From Halolamina sediminis (GTDB lineage: Archaea; Halobacteriota; Halobacteria; Halobacteriales; Haloferacaceae), in NCBI RefSeq assembly GCF_001282785.1, contig NZ_CVUA01000001.1:1798001-1862000 (forward strand): DNA of 64,000 nucleotides, written 5' to 3'. A model generated the notes under the pieces. It was not told where the DNA came from, made no database searches, and saw only the letters and a list, made by a program, of their open reading frames with translations. Positions 3,534 to 44,998 of this stretch are shown here, piece after piece. A program made the translations under genes and the position numbers. Every line of letters starts with the position of its first letter. The first letter of the stretch is position 1.

Positions 3534-4475
3534 ATGCGAGGCAAACGGCCGCTCGCCGCCGTCGGGGTCGCGCTCCTGCTCGTGCTCGCGGGCTGTGCGG
3601 GCGGGGGGAACCCCGGCGACGGCGCCACGCAGGCGGCGCTAGGCGGCGACGAGCCCGAGTACCAGCAAGCGACCGGAACGGCCGCGGAGGCCGACAGCGA
3701 GAGCGCGTCCGCGAGCAACCGGATGCGGATCTACACCGCCAAGCTCACCGTCCGCGTCGACGAGTTCGAGCCGAGCCGGTCGAACCTCTCGACCGCGGCC
3801 GAGGCCCACGGCGGCTACGTCGGAAACTCACAGATCACGAGCAACGACTGGGACGACGCGACCTACCGCGACGGCCGCTTCACCTACCGCGTGCCCGCGG
3901 AGAACTACTCCGCGTTCCTCGAGGAAGTGCGGGCTGAGGGCACCGTCGTCCGTGAGGAGGAGAACGTACAGGACGTGACCGGTCAGCACGCCGACCTCGA
4001 AGCCCGGCTCTCGAACCTCCGCGCCGAGCGCGATCGGCTCCGCGAGCTGTACGAGGAGGCCAACGACACCGAGGACGTGCTGGCGGTCCAACGCGAGCTC
4101 TCGGACGTGCAGGGCGAGATCGAGTCGATCGAGGCCCGGCTGGAGTCGCTTGAGAACCGCGTCGCATACGCCACGGTGACCGTCGAACTCCGCGAGGAAC
4201 GCCCCGACGATCCGGTCAATACCGAGAACTGGTACGACACCGGCGTGATCGCCGCGTTCCTCGAATCCGTCGACGGCGCCGTAGTCGCGCTCCGAGCCGC
4301 GGTAGTCGGGCTGGCGTACGCCCTCCCGTACCTGATCGCGTTCGGCGTGCCGCTGTTCGGCCTCGGACTGGTGTTCAAGCGCTACGTCGTCGGTGACAGG
4401 TCGATACGCGGCGGTGGCGGGGGAGAGTCGCCGGTCGACGAGGGCGACGAGCCACCGAACGAGGGCGAAGGGTAG
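3534..4475 (+). CDS. DUF4349 domain lipoprotein with C-terminal membrane anchor
   Basis: 313 residues. The N-terminus is a lipoprotein signal ending LVLAGC, with Cys21 as the lipidation site. An alpha/beta domain (about 65-140) precedes a coiled coil (about 145-215, heptad-like ELEARLSNLRAERDRLRE) and a beta segment; a hydrophobic helix near 250-290 and an acidic, glycine-rich tail end the protein. This is the arrangement of DUF4349 proteins, which are surface-exposed and of unknown role. A TATA-like ctttag lies about 28 bases before the ATG, directly after a short dyad ggttagccaacc at 3492-3503 that could be an operator. Family assignment is good; function is open. Confidence 0.85.
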   Translation: MRGKRPLAAVGVALLLVLAGCAGGGNPGDGATQAALGGDEPEYQQATGTAAEADSESASASNRMRIYTAKLTVRVDEFEPSRSNLSTAAEAHGGYVGNSQITSNDWDDATYRDGRFTYRVPAENYSAFLEEVRAEGTVVREEENVQDVTGQHADLEARLSNLRAERDRLRELYEEANDTEDVLAVQRELSDVQGEIESIEARLESLENRVAYATVTVELREERPDDPVNTENWYDTGVIAAFLESVDGAVVALRAAVVGLAYALPYLIAFGVPLFGLGLVFKRYVVGDRSIRGGGGGESPVDEGDEPPNEGEG

Positions 4476-4530
4476 CCGCCCGCGCTTCCGCTTGCCGAAC
4501 GCTTTTCGCGCTCCGGGTAAACGCCGCCCC

Positions 4531-6726
4531 ATGAGCGAACTCCCGCTCCACGCGTACTACGACCTCACGCAGATCGGCGAGATCGCCGTCTCCCCCGACG
4601 GCGACCGCGCCGCCTTTACCACTACCGAGTCCGACCCCGACGCCGACGAACCGGTGTCGTCGCTGTTCGTCGTCCCCACCGACGGCAGTCGCGATCCCCA
4701 CCGACTGACCCGCGTCTCCGGTGCCGGATCGCCGCAATGGTCGCCCGGCGGCGACCGCCTCGGCTTCCTCGCGGCCCGCGACGAGGACAGCGACCTCCGG
4801 GTCGGCCGTGACGAGGACGAAGAAGAGGACGAGGAGGAGGAAGCCGGACCGAACGGTGCCGGCGGCGGCAGCGACGAGGAACCGAACTCCCAGCTCTGGG
4901 TGTTCGACCTCGCACTCGGCGGCGACGCCCAGCAGATCACCGAGTTCGAGGAGGGCGTCCGTGAGTTCGACTGGGCGCCCGACGGCGAGCGTATCGTCGT
5001 CACCGCCCGGGACCCGACCGAGGCCGAATCGGCCTACCTCGACGAACGCCGCGACGGCGGGCCCGTCGAGACCGAGCGCGTCCAGCACAAACTCGACGGC
5101 GCCGGCTACCTCGACACCGTCACCAGCTACCTGTTCGTGGTGGGCGAGGACGCGGTGCGCGGCGACGACGCCGCGGACGCCGACTCCGCACGGAAGCTCG
5201 AGGACGCCTACGGCCGCGGCGCGTTCGAGGGGCTGAGCGGGCTCCAGCCCGACTGGGGCGCCGGCGGGGAGATCGCGTTCGTCTCCTACCGCGGCGACGA
5301 CCCCGACAGCACGCTGGAGACCGACGTGTTCACCGTCTCCCCGGACGGCGGCGACGCGACGGCGATCACCGACGGCGGGCTGAGCTGCAACAGCCCGACG
5401 TGGTCCCCCAACGGGGAGCGCCTCGCCTTCTCGGCGGGCGACGACGAGAACTGGTGTATCCCGACCGAGGCCCGCGTCTGGGACGGCGAAGAGCACGTCT
5501 CGGTCACGGGCGATCTCGACCGCACGCTCGCACGCGGCGCGTCGTTCGAGTGGGTAGACGACCAGACGTTCTACACGCTGGTCGGCGACGAAGCCCGGAC
5601 GCGGCTGATTCGGTGTGACGTTCACGAATCGCGAAGCGATTCGTTAGCCAGCCAGAACGCGGAGCGTTCTGGCGACGCCGCCGACGCCGACTGGGAACGC
5701 ACGTTCGAGGCCCAGGGCGACGATCGCGCCGTCGCCGGCCTCTCGATCGGCGGCGAAACGGCGGCGATGGGGCTCGCCCACCCCAGCGAGGGCCACGACC
5801 CCTACGCCCTGCCCGTCGACGATCTCGCAGCCGACGAGGAGCCCGAGTCGCTCACGCAGCTGGCCGAGGTGAACGCCGAGCTCACCGAGGAGTACGAGAT
5901 GCCCGAAGTCCGCCGCGTGACGTTCGAGAACGACGGCTGGGAGATTTCGGGCGTGCTGTACCATCCGCCGGAGTACGAACCCGGGAAGTCCGAGCCGGCG
6001 CCGACGGTGTGTGCGATCCACGGCGGGCCGGTGTCCTACGACGAGCCCACGTTCAGCTTCGCCCACGCGGCACTCACCACCCGCGGCTATCTGGTGTTCC
6101 GACCGAACTACCGCGGCGGCTCCTCGTTCGGCCGGAAGTTCTGCGAGACGCTTCACGGCCAGTGGGGGACCGTCGAGGCCAGCGACATCGCCGCCGGGAT
6201 CGAGTCGCTGGTCGACCGCGGCTGGACCGACCCCGATCGTGTGTTCGGCTACGGCTTCTCCTACGGCGGGATCGCACAGGGGTACCTGGTGACGCAGTAC
6301 CCCGACCTGTTCACCGCCGCGGCGCCCGAACACGGCATCTACGACCTGCGCTCGGCGTACGGCACCGACGACTCCCACATCTGGATGGAGAACGAGTACG
6401 GCTACCCGTGGGAGAACCCCGAGGACATCGACGCCTCCTCGGCGATCACGGATATCGGGAGCGTGGAGACGCCGCTGCTCGTCGCCGCCGGGGGGCAGGA
6501 CTGGCGCTGTCCGCCCTCCCAGTCCGAACAGCTCTACGTCGCGGCCCAGCAGGCCGGCGCGGACTGTCGGCTCGTCGTCTACGAGGACGAACACCACAAC
6601 ATCGGCGACCCCGACCGCGCGATCCACCGGCTGGAGGAGATCACGGCGTGGTACCGTCGGCACGATCCGGCGGTGAGCGATCCCGACGCCGCCGACCCCC
6701 ACGGTCGCGAAGCGGACGGAGAGTAG
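4531..6726 (+). CDS. S9 family peptidase (prolyl oligopeptidase / acylaminoacyl-peptidase type)
   Basis: 731 residues. WD40-like beta-propeller blades fill roughly the first 430 residues (repeated ...SPDGDRxAF... units), followed by an alpha/beta-hydrolase domain. The catalytic triad is visible: Ser577 in GFSYGG, Asp657 in GGQDWRCPP and His688/689 in EDEHHN. No signal peptide is seen, so it is probably a cytoplasmic oligopeptidase. A very acidic linker (residues ~95-115) interrupts the propeller. A double-hairpin insertion sits in frame at residues 365-381. ATG 4531 starts the family-like MSELPLHAYYDL; the longer upstream frame belongs to the previous gene's end. Close paralogue of the gene at 42884, and a third S9 peptidase lies at 61167. 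Confidence 0.93.
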   Translation: MSELPLHAYYDLTQIGEIAVSPDGDRAAFTTTESDPDADEPVSSLFVVPTDGSRDPHRLTRVSGAGSPQWSPGGDRLGFLAARDEDSDLRVGRDEDEEEDEEEEAGPNGAGGGSDEEPNSQLWVFDLALGGDAQQITEFEEGVREFDWAPDGERIVVTARDPTEAESAYLDERRDGGPVETERVQHKLDGAGYLDTVTSYLFVVGEDAVRGDDAADADSARKLEDAYGRGAFEGLSGLQPDWGAGGEIAFVSYRGDDPDSTLETDVFTVSPDGGDATAITDGGLSCNSPTWSPNGERLAFSAGDDENWCIPTEARVWDGEEHVSVTGDLDRTLARGASFEWVDDQTFYTLVGDEARTRLIRCDVHESRSDSLASQNAERSGDAADADWERTFEAQGDDRAVAGLSIGGETAAMGLAHPSEGHDPYALPVDDLAADEEPESLTQLAEVNAELTEEYEMPEVRRVTFENDGWEISGVLYHPPEYEPGKSEPAPTVCAIHGGPVSYDEPTFSFAHAALTTRGYLVFRPNYRGGSSFGRKFCETLHGQWGTVEASDIAAGIESLVDRGWTDPDRVFGYGFSYGGIAQGYLVTQYPDLFTAAAPEHGIYDLRSAYGTDDSHIWMENEYGYPWENPEDIDASSAITDIGSVETPLLVAAGGQDWRCPPSQSEQLYVAAQQAGADCRLVVYEDEHHNIGDPDRAIHRLEEITAWYRRHDPAVSDPDAADPHGREADGE
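5624..5673. repeat. In-frame double-hairpin element, copy 1
   Basis: Two consecutive palindromes inside the first S9 peptidase gene. Hairpin 1 is ACGAATCGC-GAA-GCGATTCGT (5624-5644, 9 bp stem). The spacer is TAGCCA. Hairpin 2 is GCCAGAACGC-GGA-GCGTTCTGGC (5651-5673, 10 bp stem). GACG occurs just before (5617) and again just after (5674), 57 bases apart, a multiple of three, so the reading frame is kept. Copies 2 (44103-44152) and 3 (30514-30570) share the layout but not the stem sequences. It encodes a hydrophilic loop between beta-propeller strands. Confidence 0.8.
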
Positions 6727-28663: not shown

Positions 28664-29821
28664 CTACCGGAGTCGTTCCGAGGCGATCTCGGCGCCCTCG
28701 ACGAGCGCTTCGAGTTTGGGCCACGCGATGTCGGGGTGGACCATCCCGAGACCGGCCTGCGTGCCGAACCCGCAGTCGGGCGCGGCGACGATCTCGGTGT
28801 CGTCGGGGACGACGGTCGCGACGCGCTCGATGCGGTCGGCGATCGTCTCCGGGTGGTCGATGATGTTCGTCTTCACGTCGACGACGCCGGGGATCAGCGT
28901 CCAGCCGTCGGGCAGGGGGTGCTCGGCGAAGGCGCGGTACTCGTGCTGGTGGCGGGGGTTGGCCTGCTCGACGCTCAGCCCCGAGATGTCGGCCTCGTAC
29001 AGCGTGGGCAGCATGTCGACAAGGTCGGTGTCGAGGTGGTGGGGGCCCTCGTAGCTCCCCCAACAGGTGTGGAGGCGGACCTGCTCCTCGGGGATGCCCG
29101 AGAGCGCCTCGTTGAGCGCGTCGACGTGGAGCTCGACGACCTCGCGGAACTCCTCGACGCTGTCGTCGGCGAACAGGTGGCTGTGGCCCGTCGCGAGCAG
29201 GTCCGGCGCGTCGATCTGGATCGTCGCGCCCGTCTCCGCGAAGAGCTCGTACTCCTCGGCCATCGCGTCGGCGATGTCGAACACGTACTCCGCGTGGTCG
29301 TCGTAGTGCTCGTCGACGTGGGTCGCCGCGACGACGCTGGGGGAGGCGGTCGTGAAGAACGTGTTCTCGATGTCGACGCCCGTACCCTCCAGCGCTTCGC
29401 GGAGCTGTTCGACTTCCTGCTCGGCGGCGTCGTGGCCCTCGTAGCGGATCTCGCCGGTCACCGCGGGCTGTTTCGCGAGGTCGATCACGTCGGTCTCGAA
29501 CGTGTCCTCCGCGACGGCGGGGTACTCCTCCAGATCGGCCCACAGCTCCTGCTCGCGCTTGCCGCCGATGTTGGTGAGTCGATCGCCCACGTAGTAGTTG
29601 AACGAGACGCGGGGCTGCTCGCCGTTGTTGATCTCGTCGATGCCCGTTTCGAGCTGGCGGTCGACGATGTCGTGGGTGGCCTCGCGGCTCACGCGGTCCC
29701 ACTCCTCGGGGTCCACGTCGCCGCCGGCCTCGCGGGTCCGCAGCAGGTCGAGCAGCTCCGGGGGCCGCGGGAGGCTGCCGATGTGTGTCGTCTGGATCCG
29801 ATCGCCGTCGTGAGTCGACAT
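28664..29821 (-). CDS. MetE-type cobalamin-independent methionine synthase family protein
   Basis: 385 residues, single-domain (half the size of full MetE, corresponding to its catalytic half). TTHIGSLPRPPELLDLL opens the protein; HTCWGSYEGPHHLDTDL carries a conserved zinc-site region and VAAPDCGFGTQAGLG the C-terminal Cys ligand. Archaeal members transfer a methyl group from a methylated corrinoid or folate donor to homocysteine, or act on other thiols. Lies 53 bp upstream of the subunit 3 gene on the same strand, with that gene's promoter between. Role in methionine synthesis is likely but a related thiol transferase is possible. Confidence 0.88.
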   Translation of the reverse strand: MSTHDGDRIQTTHIGSLPRPPELLDLLRTREAGGDVDPEEWDRVSREATHDIVDRQLETGIDEINNGEQPRVSFNYYVGDRLTNIGGKREQELWADLEEYPAVAEDTFETDVIDLAKQPAVTGEIRYEGHDAAEQEVEQLREALEGTGVDIENTFFTTASPSVVAATHVDEHYDDHAEYVFDIADAMAEEYELFAETGATIQIDAPDLLATGHSHLFADDSVEEFREVVELHVDALNEALSGIPEEQVRLHTCWGSYEGPHHLDTDLVDMLPTLYEADISGLSVEQANPRHQHEYRAFAEHPLPDGWTLIPGVVDVKTNIIDHPETIADRIERVATVVPDDTEIVAAPDCGFGTQAGLGMVHPDIAWPKLEALVEGAEIASERLR

Positions 29822-29925
29822 ACTCGGTAATAATTTTACTCACAAATATAACCAGTGGTTTTGCAGAGGGCGATAGACCGGCCGGAAACCGTCCATTCAA
29901 GCGGGTCCGTGCCGGGGTGGGCAAC

Positions 29926-31227
29926 ATGGACGGAAACGACCGGCGGATCGTGGGGCTGGCGGGGGCGGCCCACGCGCTGGTCCACACGTACGAACTCTCG
30001 GTGCCCATCCTCGTGGGGATCTGGCTGGCAGAGTTCGCGACGACGGCGGCCGAGCTCGGTATCGTCGTCGCGGTCGGGATGGCGCTGTTTGGTATCGGCG
30101 CGCTGCCGGGCGGTGTGCTCGCGGACCGCTACGGCTCGCGGAAGCTGATCGCGCTCTGTCTGGTCGGCATGGGAGGGTCGTTCCTCGTGCTCTCGGTCGC
30201 GCCTGGCGCCGCCGCGGGGGCGATCGGCTCGGTCCCCGTGATCTCGACCAGCCCCGCGGTGATCGCGATCGCGGTCGCGCTGGTGCTGTGGGGCGCCGCG
30301 GCCAGCGTCTACCACCCCGCGGGGCTCGCGCTGATCAGCAAGGGCGTCTCCGAGCAGGGCCGGGGCTTCGCGCTGCACGGGATGGCCGGCAACATCGGCA
30401 TCGCGGCGGGGCCGCTGGCGACGACGGTGATGCTCGCGTTCCTCGACTGGGAGACGGTCGCGGCGGTGCTGGCGGTACCGGCGTTCGTCGCGGCCGCCGC
30501 TACGCTGTTCGTCGACGTCGACGAGCGAAGCTCGTCTGCCAGTCAGACGCAGTCTGACGACGTCGACGAGTCGACCCACCGGAGCGACGACGACGAGGAG
30601 GACGACACGCCCGACACCATCGGCGAGTTCCTCGACGTGTCGATGATGGTCGCAAAGAGCGCGTTCGCGTTCGTGTTCGTCGTCGTGATGATGAACGGGC
30701 TCTACTACCGCGGCGTGCTGACGTTCCTGCCCGAACTGCTCGCGGGACTGGAGACGTTCCAGCCGATCGAGATCGCCGGCGAACCGCAGGAGCCGGCGAA
30801 CTACGTCTACTCGGGCCTGCTCGCAGTCGGTATCGCCGGCCAGTACGTCGGCGGCCGGCTGACCGAGCGGCTCTCGCCGGGGCAGGGGATCGCGTACGCC
30901 TTCGGCGCGCTGGCGGTGCTTGCGGTGCTGTTCCTCCCGCTGGCGTCGATGGGCGCGGCGCCGCTGCTGCTGGTGAGTGCGGTGCTCGGCTTCGCGCTGT
31001 TCATCGTCCAGCCGATCTATCAGGCCGCCGTCGCGGAGTACACTCCCGAGTCCGCCCGCGGGCTCTCCTACGGCTACACCTACCTCGGCAACTTCGGCGT
31101 CGGCGCGCTCGGCGCGGGGCTGGCCGGCGTGATCCTGACGTACTCGAACCAGACAGTGCTGTTCCTCGTGTTCGCGCTGATCGCCGGGATCGCCAGCGGC
31201 GTCGGCGTGCTGTTGCTGCGGCGGTAG
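29926..31227 (+). CDS. MFS transporter
   Basis: 433 residues, twelve membrane helices in two halves. GVLADRYGSRKLIAL between helices 2 and 3 is the MFS loop motif. The central loop is highly acidic (DDDEEDDTPD) and is extended by an in-frame double-hairpin element. ATG 29926 starts MDGNDRRIVGLAGAAHALVH; upstream frame is promoter, with AT-rich taataattttactcacaaatataa at 29828-29852. Substrate unknown. Confidence 0.9.
   Translation: MDGNDRRIVGLAGAAHALVHTYELSVPILVGIWLAEFATTAAELGIVVAVGMALFGIGALPGGVLADRYGSRKLIALCLVGMGGSFLVLSVAPGAAAGAIGSVPVISTSPAVIAIAVALVLWGAAASVYHPAGLALISKGVSEQGRGFALHGMAGNIGIAAGPLATTVMLAFLDWETVAAVLAVPAFVAAAATLFVDVDERSSSASQTQSDDVDESTHRSDDDEEDDTPDTIGEFLDVSMMVAKSAFAFVFVVVMMNGLYYRGVLTFLPELLAGLETFQPIEIAGEPQEPANYVYSGLLAVGIAGQYVGGRLTERLSPGQGIAYAFGALAVLAVLFLPLASMGAAPLLLVSAVLGFALFIVQPIYQAAVAEYTPESARGLSYGYTYLGNFGVGALGAGLAGVILTYSNQTVLFLVFALIAGIASGVGVLLLRR
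30514..30570. repeat. In-frame double-hairpin element, copy 3, with 12 bp flanking direct repeat
   Basis: Hairpin 1 is GACGAGC-GAA-GCTCGTC (30520-30536). The spacer is TGCCA. Hairpin 2 is GTCAGAC-GCA-GTCTGAC (30542-30558). The sequence GACGTCGACGAG is present on both sides (30514-30525 and 30559-30570), 45 bases apart, so the element adds 15 codons without a frame change. The direct repeat looks like a target duplication. It sits in the MFS central loop, where length change is tolerated. Confidence 0.75.
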
Positions 31228-42883: not shown

Positions 42884-44998
42884 ATGGACGAACTGTCCCC
42901 GGAGCGGTTCTACGATTTCTCGATCGCGACCGGCGCCACCGTTTCCCCCGACGGGGAGCGGGTGGCGTTCCTGGTCAGCGAGTTCGACGCCGAGGAGGAC
43001 GACCGCCACACGTCGCTGTTCGTCGCACCGACCGACGGCTCCGCCGATCCCTACCGGCTCACCCGCGCCTCCAGCGCGTCCTCGCCGCAGTGGTCGCCCG
43101 ACGGCGACCGCCTCGCGTTCGTCGCGGCCCGCGAGACCGACGCCGGCGTCGCCGTCGAGAACGGGGCGGAGGAAGGCGCGGACGACGAGGAGGAGAACGG
43201 CGGCCCGGTGGGCGAGGGACCGAAACCGCAGGTCTGGTCGTTCGACATGGAGCGCGGCGGCGACGCCCGCCAGCTCACCGACCGCGACTACGGCGTCGCG
43301 GAGTTCGACTGGGGCCCGGACGGCGAGCGCCTCGTGATCGCCGCCCGCGATCCCACCGAGGAGGACGAGGAGTACCTGCAGCAGCGCAACGAGGACGGGC
43401 CGATCGAGATCGACCGACTCCAGCACAAAGGCGACGGTGCGGGCTGGATGGACGAGGTGTCCAGCTACCTGTTCGTCGTCGACGCCGACAGCCGCGAGAC
43501 GGTCCGGCTCGACAACGCCTACGACGACGAGGAAAAGGGCGACCGCCGGGGGCTCCAGCCCGCGTGGTCGCCCGACGGCGACCGGATCGCGTTCGTCGCC
43601 CAGCACGAGGAAGACCCCGACGACACCCACGTCCGGAACGTCTACACGATCCGCCCGGACGGCACGGGGTACCAGCAGCTGACTGACGCCGGAATGCGCG
43701 TCCAGCAGCCGCGATGGTCGCCCGACGGGAGCCGGATCGCCGTCGGCGGCGGTGACCCGTACAACTGGTACAAGCCGACCGAGGCGTACGTGCTCGACGT
43801 GGAGAGCGGCGATTTTCGGTCGGTCTCGGAGTCGCTCGACCGCACGATCGCGTTCGGCGGCAACCCCCACTGGCTCGACGACGACACGCTCGTCGGCCTG
43901 TTCGGCGACGAGGGGAACACCCGGATGGTCCGCCTCGACGCCGAGGAAGACGATCCCGAGCGTGTGTTCGTCGCGCAGGGCCGGAGCAGATCCGTCTCGG
44001 GGCTCTCGGTCTCGGCGGACGGCGACACGCTCGCGTTCCGAATGGCCGATCCCACGGCGGGCGCCGACATCTACGCGATGGGGCGTGAGGGGCTCGACGT
44101 TGACGGGAGCGAAGCTCCCGTTCGCCAACCGGAAACGGGGACCGTTTCCGGTGACGCGGAGAAGGGCGCCGATGCCGACGAGGCGGGACTTGCACGCGTC
44201 AGCGAGGTCAACGCCGATCTGGTCGACGAACACCACGACTGCGTGCGCGTCTCCTGGGAGAACTCCGACGGCGTCACTATCCACGGGCTGGCGTACCTCC
44301 CGCCGGGATTCGATCCGGAGGATCCCGACCCGCGTCCGGTGGTCTCCTCGGTCCACGGCGGGCCGATGTCGTACGACTCGCCGGCGTTCGGCTTCGATCA
44401 ACTGTTCTGGACGAGCAACGACTACATCGTCCTCCGAACCAACTACCGCGGCTCGACCTCCTACGGGCAGGAGTTCGCCGAGCGACTGCGCGGGACTCGG
44501 GGTGACAAGGAGGTCGACGACGTGGTCACGGGCGTCGAACACCTCGTCGAGGAGGGGTGGGCCGACGAGGACCGACTCTACCTCACCGGCTTCTCCTACG
44601 GCGGCGTCACCACCGCCGCGACGGTGACGAAGTCCGACGTCTTCGCCGCTGCGGCGGCCGAGCACGGCATCTACGACTTCTACGCCACGTTCGGCACCGA
44701 CGACAACCACCTCTGGCACGAGGACGAGTTCGGCCTACCGTGGGAGAACGTCGACACGTACCGCGAGATCTCCTCGATCACCGACGTCGGCGGCGTCGAC
44801 ACGCCGCTTCTGGTCACCGCCGGCGAGAACGACTGGCGCTGCCCGCCGACGCAGGCCGAACAGCTGTTCGTCTCGGTGCGAAAGCAGGGCGTCGACTCGC
44901 GGCTGGTGATCTACCCCGACGAACACCACAACATCGGCGATCCCGACCGCGCGATCCACCGGCTCGAGGAGCTGGAGCGCTGGTTCGCCGAGCACTGA
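42884..44998 (+). CDS. S9 family peptidase, paralogue of the gene at 4531
   Basis: 704 residues. Beta-propeller N-domain (about 1-420) and alpha/beta-hydrolase C-domain. Triad: Ser571 in LTGFSYGG, Asp650 in ENDWRCPP, His681/682 in DEHHNIG. The ending GDPDRAIHRLEEL is shared with the paralogue. An acidic insert (GAEEGADDEEENGG) interrupts the propeller, and a double-hairpin element adds residues 407-423 just before LARVSEVNADL. A cytoplasmic oligopeptidase is likely. A 37 bp tandem duplication precedes the promoter. Confidence 0.93.
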   Translation: MDELSPERFYDFSIATGATVSPDGERVAFLVSEFDAEEDDRHTSLFVAPTDGSADPYRLTRASSASSPQWSPDGDRLAFVAARETDAGVAVENGAEEGADDEEENGGPVGEGPKPQVWSFDMERGGDARQLTDRDYGVAEFDWGPDGERLVIAARDPTEEDEEYLQQRNEDGPIEIDRLQHKGDGAGWMDEVSSYLFVVDADSRETVRLDNAYDDEEKGDRRGLQPAWSPDGDRIAFVAQHEEDPDDTHVRNVYTIRPDGTGYQQLTDAGMRVQQPRWSPDGSRIAVGGGDPYNWYKPTEAYVLDVESGDFRSVSESLDRTIAFGGNPHWLDDDTLVGLFGDEGNTRMVRLDAEEDDPERVFVAQGRSRSVSGLSVSADGDTLAFRMADPTAGADIYAMGREGLDVDGSEAPVRQPETGTVSGDAEKGADADEAGLARVSEVNADLVDEHHDCVRVSWENSDGVTIHGLAYLPPGFDPEDPDPRPVVSSVHGGPMSYDSPAFGFDQLFWTSNDYIVLRTNYRGSTSYGQEFAERLRGTRGDKEVDDVVTGVEHLVEEGWADEDRLYLTGFSYGGVTTAATVTKSDVFAAAAAEHGIYDFYATFGTDDNHLWHEDEFGLPWENVDTYREISSITDVGGVDTPLLVTAGENDWRCPPTQAEQLFVSVRKQGVDSRLVIYPDEHHNIGDPDRAIHRLEELERWFAEH
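44103..44152. repeat. In-frame double-hairpin element, copy 2
   Basis: Hairpin 1 ACGGGAGC-GAA-GCTCCCGT (44103-44121), spacer TCGCCA, hairpin 2 ACCGGAAACGG-GGA-CCGTTTCCGGT (44128-44152, 11 bp stem). GACG flanks it at 44096 and 44153, 57 bases apart, the same size as copy 1. Layout, loops and spacer match copies 1 and 3, but stems differ. It lies in a different propeller loop from copy 1, so the two paralogues were hit independently. Confidence 0.8.

Follow-up and report, generated by a model that had tools for sequence, protein, structure and literature searches.

Three double hairpins in protein-coding genes

The window, i.e. the whole stretch of DNA analysed, comprises 64,000 nucleotides (C1:1798001-1862000) of the 2.84 Mb genome of Halolamina sediminis (G000), to which the nearest named species are Halolamina species. 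Two S9 peptidase genes and one MFS transporter gene in this window each contain a pair of triloop hairpins, H1 and H2, in an insert here named E1, E2 or E3 (Table 1). The first-pass annotation had placed these double hairpins at 5624-5673, 30520-30558 and 44103-44152 and had given insert lengths of 57, 45 and 57 bp; positions and lengths were found to be correct, and all stems are perfectly paired. Hairpin H1 of E1 folds as single-stranded DNA. E1 (match at C1 1803617-1803679) and E2 matched the covariance model described below with 73 and 46.7 bits, respectively. The residues encoded by E3 (approximately 405-424) lie within a low-confidence loop of an AlphaFold model whose overall quality is low (mean pLDDT 61.8).

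Table 1. Positions of the three inserts and their parts in the window
Feature	Position	Strand	Description
E1, 57-bp insert	5621..5677	+	S9 peptidase gene 4393-6726; adds 19 codons; peptide across insert DVHESRSDSLASQNAERSGDA
E1 target CG	5619..5620 (left copy), 5676-5677 (right copy)		CG present at relatives' empty sites
E1 hairpin H1	5624..5644	+	ACGAATCGC-GAA-GCGATTCGT; 9 bp + GAA + 9 bp
E1 spacer	5645..5650	+	TAGCCA; (N)GCCA in most family copies
E1 hairpin H2	5651..5673	+	GCCAGAACGC-GGA-GCGTTCTGGC; 10 bp + GGA + 10 bp
E2, 45-bp insert	30518..30562	+	MFS transporter gene 29785-31227
E2 hairpin H1	30520-30536	+	7 bp, GAA loop
E2 spacer	30537-30541	+	TGCCA
E2 hairpin H2	30542-30558	+	7 bp, GCA loop
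E3, 57-bp insert	44100..44156	+	S9 peptidase gene 42884-44998
E3 hairpin H1	44103-44121	+	8 bp, GAA loop
E3 spacer	44122-44127	+	TCGCCA
E3 hairpin H2	44128-44152	+	11 bp, GGA loop

Single triloop hairpins with stems of at least 7 bp were no more common in the window than expected (19 observed, approximately 15 expected under a Markov model), as would be the case if the palindromes had arisen by chance in GC-rich coding DNA. Three hairpin pairs with a GCCA spacer were present in the real window and none in 60 simulated windows, which together yielded only two pairs with any spacer; shuffling the synonymous codons of the three host genes 300 times produced no double hairpin. Hence, the signal above chance lies in the closely spaced pair with its GCCA spacer and not in the single hairpins, and random sequence, which the annotation had named as a possible source, does not give the pattern as often. 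Together with the family-wide homology and the empty sites reported below, which refute it, this leaves a chance origin practically without probability.

Anatomy, distribution and insertion sites of the family

A covariance model was built from five copies, namely E1, E3 and three derived from a pattern search and a neighboring array, some of which were shortened by one base pair to align. In the source genome it gave more than 70 matches at E < 1e-3, both strands counted, at about 50 distinct places. Among 99 relatives, matches were obtained in 93 genomes representing 52 of 54 genera; copy counts per genome in this set refer to the best approximately 54 scored candidates and are thus minimum values. 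At a threshold of 1e-6, 47 of 53 genomes of the same order matched among 295 genomes of the phylum, compared with one of about 242 others. This lone match outside the haloarchaeal order (G238, E 9.5e-8) belongs to another family of the phylum and may be due to contamination, transfer or chance. All of the 32 matches among 72,556 plasmid records were haloarchaeal. No match was found by BLAST among 50,697 phages, in viral contigs with a strict pattern, or in the one Nocardiopsis genome searched, and a search of the PDB with the consensus peptide found nothing. The family to which the three double hairpins belong is near-universal in the Halobacteria tested.

On one strand the consensus reads CG, T, C/T, one or two bases, H1, (N)GCCA, H2, GA and CG, giving the scheme CG-TY(N)-[H1]-(N)GCCA-[H2]-GA-CG with the tags outward. 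The consensus of H1 is ACGAGAGC-NNN-GCTCTCGT and that of H2 is A(C/T)CAGAACGC or A(C/T)CAGAAATC, followed by NNN and the complement. Stem lengths range from 7 to 11 bp across the family (7-10 bp for H1, mostly 10 bp for H2). About 95% of 103 aligned copies have CGT at the left and ACG at the right end, the fourth base being mostly C/T; H1 begins with AC or GAC, the outer pair of H2 is A-U in 74 copies, and its second pair is C-G in 52 and U-A in 41. As judged by eye, T(T)CACGAGAGC at one end of the element resembles TCACCAGAACGC at the other over approximately 10 nt, as terminal inverted repeats of a MITE might. An outer GCCGT/ACGGC stem that had been used in the covariance model does not belong to the element, because the bases beyond CGT/ACG follow the target; the base pair just outside is unpaired in 45 of the 103 copies.

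This consensus corrects the initial description in several points. The stems had been called unrelated in sequence, but H1 copies share ACG...CGT and H2 copies share (A/G)YC(A/G)GA...TC(T/C)GR(T/C), and mainly the tips vary across the family. A rule of GAA and GNA loops does not hold, since any three bases occur, GAA/TTC and GGA/TCC being the commonest. GNA triloops form stable DNA mini-hairpins, and an explanation on this basis was dropped because the loops are free. Nor does the GACG on either side represent a box specific to the element: the left one is target sequence that ends in CG, and the right one is made up of the GA of the element and CG.

Each of the 40 H2-type hairpins in the genome was part of a double or multiple hairpin and none was solitary, which identifies the dimer as the unit. 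Two stem pairs had been left open in the H2 search pattern; they were complementary at 36 of the 40 places and fell into three sequence types by inspection. A control pattern read backward had no match in the genome. A strand bias, hinted at by six pattern matches on the plus strand only, was abandoned as the covariance model detects both strands. The genome contains tandem arrays at C1:170579-170741 and 2255884-2256011, with separators alternating between GACGT and GCCA; these two and C1:2125821-2125911 are compound multi-hairpin arrays. Such arrays would be expected if newer elements insert at a CG beside older ones.

Insertion was examined by searching joined-flank queries against six other Halolamina genomes and by alignments. 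Clean 57-bp gaps were found in relatives at E1, E3, dapA, a glyoxalase-like gene, and the 3'-end of a helix-hairpin-helix gene. Six other Halolamina orthologues of E1 and E3 have no insert at the same point, and neither have the E3 orthologues of H. pelagica, H. rubra, and H. salifodinae. Relatives are also without the element in the MFS gene (45 bp) and in dapF (51 bp), where the gaps are less sharp and lie in variable stretches. Several relatives have one CG at the empty site, and one CG is found on each side of the insert. These empty sites thus represent precise insertions at a CG, which is then present on both sides, either as a 2-bp target duplication, as would be expected of a MITE, or because the element brings its own CG. 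The expectation of an element family that spreads was borne out, as copies are inserted in frame in genes whose orthologues are without it.

Identical stems at one and the same site in a relative had been regarded by the annotation as evidence against such a family, and one case of this kind exists. In dapA, G003 (C3:133993-134375, L129) carries the element at the same point as the source genome. All 49 stem and spacer positions are identical between the two, the flanks have diverged by about 16%, one loop differs by a single change, and the other is an exact reverse complement. G000 and G003 are not each other's nearest relatives, and the common site requires a parallel insertion (hot spot), a loss, or gene transfer. 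The remaining empty sites indicate that insertion, and not inheritance alone, is at work. In the source genome, dapA (C1:1063980-1064042, L043) and dapF (1067244-1067300, L085) each contain their own element; as they are located 3.2 kb apart, they probably belong to one lysine-pathway cluster.

Most copies lie outside genes, at odds with the preference for coding DNA that had been implied. A group of intergenic copies (C1 near 188380, 280468, 467010, 705413, 1507750, 2354266, and 2418404) is found within a larger dispersed repeat with a left flank like GTGCGGTGGCGGTGGACGCCTCGCG. Six loci from several genera (L050, L051, L055, L057, L065, and L066) have a common outer flank, GACGACGCAAGCAC or close to it, which suggests a longer intergenic repeat carrying the element. 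Many intergenic copies have long flanks in common and may have spread as passengers of larger repeats. The copies at C1:2018896 and 845760, which have similar flanks, begin a few bases past a TGA resembling a gene stop, a placement like that of bacterial REPs 3' of genes. Long common flanks and tandem arrays would also fit a spread without any mobility enzyme, by capture or recombination of hairpin DNA during repair of breaks combined with the spread of longer carrier repeats. This is unlikely in our view, as intragenic copies share no flank sequence beyond the CG and five sites have clean inserts.

Stem conservation, loop inversion and reading frame

In the alignment of 103 copies fitted to the covariance model, 96.1% of the cells were paired compared with 79.8% in shuffles, and covariation was 0.453 compared with 0.155. 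The mode of change was derived from 13 independent pairs in which both copies have homologous flanks; perfect stems were no criterion for their selection. Changed positions amounted to 14 out of 616 in stems and spacer (2%), 32 out of 78 in loops (41%), and 212 out of 1170 in flanks (18%). Among 14 changed loops 6 were exact reverse complements, a result that random change would give in 1 of 63. Template switching of the polymerase between the arms of inverted repeats has been reported to homogenise the arms and to invert what lies between them, for example from GAA to TTC in genes of yeast, and proteobacterial short inverted repeats have been described as better conserved than the sequence around them (PMC8604942). 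Such switching explains both the perfect arms and the inverted loops, so that no selection on structure is needed. The inverted loops would then be a signature of template switching or, alternatively, of cruciform resolution.

It had been argued that changing stems with preserved pairing indicate selection on structure. If so, the hairpins might act as structured RNA in the mRNA, in stability, processing, or termination, with the pairing kept by selection. Strong pairing and covariation agree with this, the elements fold well as RNA too, and several intergenic copies come after genes. On the other hand, arm homogenisation yields covariation without selection (PMC8604942), and 6 of 14 changed loops are exactly inverted, which points to processes at the DNA level. 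Furthermore, G-U pairs are few in the two hairpins, presence is patchy among close species, and no Rfam model matched at its gathering score anywhere in the window. A role as structured RNA is therefore considered very unlikely.

Intragenic copies were called by a codon model trained on the window in combination with homology and frame; dapF, the glyoxalase-like and tnpB-like genes, L054, L063, L064, and L073 scored below the cut-off of the codon model and were included because of their frame and homology. Gene names outside the window come from reading the sequences rather than from a family search. The length of all 20 copies called intragenic is a multiple of three, and in 19 of them frame and orientation are the same and the encoded peptides are polar and similar to one another. 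These are E1-E3 of the window, dapA, dapF, and the glyoxalase-like and tnpB-like genes of the source genome, dapA of G003, and 11 loci of other genomes (L054, L059, L063, L064, L067, L069, L073, L076, L078, L159, and L167). The single reversed copy is located in a YchF-like GTPase gene (L162). The number of events is smaller than that of copies, because L063 and L064 look orthologous and the dapA copies share a site. Copies of 55 bp would shift the frame if intragenic, and all 33 of those sampled lie outside genes. Of 96 copies, 44-74 are also open in other frames, and the two frames most like the used one are more hydrophobic or more basic; in host genes the CG spans a codon boundary in 615 out of 1006 cases. 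The choice of frame thus seems to depend partly on the CG phase and partly, as we infer, on selection on the peptide.

Relation to known repeats and proposed mode of spread

The superfamily of CGTC-tagged REPs (Di Nocera et al. 2013) is characterized by a CGTC tag, a tail near CCA, head-to-head dimers, and intragenic copies; it includes RPE-4 and RPE-6 and is without known transposase (PMC3733652). Rickettsial palindromic elements, which had been proposed as the nearest parallel, were thus rightly placed among the nearest ones. Like these REPs, among them also dRS3 of Neisseria, the haloarchaeal element has short hairpins with a CGTC-like outer tag, and its inner sequence may correspond to their CCA-like tail. 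Most of the REPs, and all full copies here, are head-to-head dimers with the tags outward. Intragenic copies and host genes of genome maintenance are further common features; bacterial REPs have been reported in replication and repair genes, and insertions in MutS-like (L069) and DnaG-like (L059) genes of other haloarchaeal genera echo this. A dedicated transposase is not known for the REPs, and counts of Y1 transposase genes do not track copies here.

Differences concern the loops (4-5 nt in the REPs, three here), in part the stems (7-11 bp here, a range that includes the 8-9 bp of the REPs), and stem positions 1-2, which are complementary A and T in the REPs and not constantly A-T in the haloarchaeal element. 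The two 3-nt tails near CCA would here be combined in a single (N)GCCA, which follows H1 directly and appears as TGGC after H2 when read from its own tag. In addition, our element is archaeal and Halobacteria-wide, has no solitary H2, and its tag CG coincides with the insertion site. Since loop length and the A-T rule fail, it is best described as a variant that resembles the CGTC superfamily and is not a proven member; it works like these REPs and may belong to them. The paper on the superfamily names no haloarchaeon (PMC3733652), none was included in a later survey of archaeal REPs (PMC12306157), and no account of haloarchaeal CGTC-tagged REPs was found in open-access papers, although one may exist in a subscription journal.

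Other systems share single traits. Compared by description, rickettsial palindromic elements are also palindromic and occur as in-frame insertions, with a recurring peptide, in genes unrelated to one another, but they are rickettsial and approximately 150 bp long (PMC10969869), whereas the haloarchaeal element measures 45-57 bp. Mitochondrial double-hairpin elements and the GC clusters of yeast are likewise small palindromic or double-hairpin mobile units, and in the case of GC42 a 2-nt direct repeat (AG) stands on both sides and differences between species are located in the loops (PMC4478555). In contrast to our family, they are organellar, unrelated in sequence, mostly intergenic, and without a single reading-frame rule. 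The yeast inverted repeats subject to template switching have perfect arms and exact spacer inversion (GAA to TTC) in coding DNA as well; there, mutation occurs at existing inverted repeats (PMC8604942), while the haloarchaeal element is a dispersed family.

The REPIN or BIME units of GTAG-tagged REPs are also inverted hairpin dimers that are mobile as such and dispersed in tens of copies. They are mostly extragenic and are associated with a GTAG tag and a RAYT, which is not reported in Archaea. Y1 HUH transposases of the RAYT or IS200/IS605 type might mobilise the haloarchaeal hairpins as single-stranded DNA, as the tag with its hairpin dimer is similar to REP/REPIN. One copy on the Halorientalis plasmid pHOS100 (1501-1559, L172) is located about 110 bp before an IS200/IS605 tnpA, and a degenerate copy lies inside the tnpB-like gene. 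The plasmid copy overlaps the annotated start of orc1/cdc6. Insertion of IS200/IS605 is not known to be accompanied by a target duplication, which counts against this mode, as do the absence of the GTAG tag and the ends CGTY/RACG. No Y1 genes were found in 44 of the 99 genomes, 29 of which hold at least 5 copies, and among the best approximately 54 candidates per genome Y1 counts were poorly correlated with copy number (Spearman 0.19, p 0.06). G018 contains 19 copies and no Y1_Tnp match, and the same applies to other near-complete genomes with many copies. Moreover, in Archaea only the IS200 subclass of Y1 proteins has been reported, not RAYTs (PMC6006769). Mobilisation by a Y1 enzyme is thus doubtful, to about the same degree as a spread without any enzyme.

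The interpretation we favor, and consider probable, is that of one non-autonomous mobile family of Halobacteria that inserts at CG, is subject to purifying selection in genes, and has its stems maintained by template switching. The unit would be a dimer in which (N)GCCA links two triloop hairpins and the tags point outward, and it would insert as a whole at a CG. A nuclease or transposase acting in trans might recognize tag and hairpins, probably as single-stranded DNA, and join the unit to the CG, a step on which our judgment is evenly balanced. After insertion, purifying selection would remove gene-breaking copies. Those kept in genes would contribute 15-19 codons each, in almost all cases in the frame that yields a polar, less basic peptide. 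Polymerase template switching between the arms would keep the stems perfect and the loops variable and often inverted, as the pattern of change suggests. Copies outside genes, the majority, are probably near-neutral.

A more far-reaching view, which is speculative and in our estimate rather improbable, is that of a hairpin-dimer transposable class that is old and near-universal in Halobacteria and has its own CG-integrating enzyme. The bacterial CGTC tag would then consist of the target CG and the TC of the element, one chemistry would serve RPE-4/6, dRS3 and the archaeal family, and the elements would repeatedly build surface loops in essential enzymes. The family extends CGTC-type palindromic repeats, for which the mobility enzyme is not known, to a whole archaeal class that includes genetically tractable groups. 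It offers up to tens of copies per genome, clean empty sites, and a testable target rule (CG), and provides a natural record of template switching within protein-coding genes. It is also a steady source of insertions of 15-19 residues in conserved enzymes such as dapA, dapF, MutS-like, and DnaG-like proteins, which annotators and structural biologists would otherwise take for lineage-specific loops.
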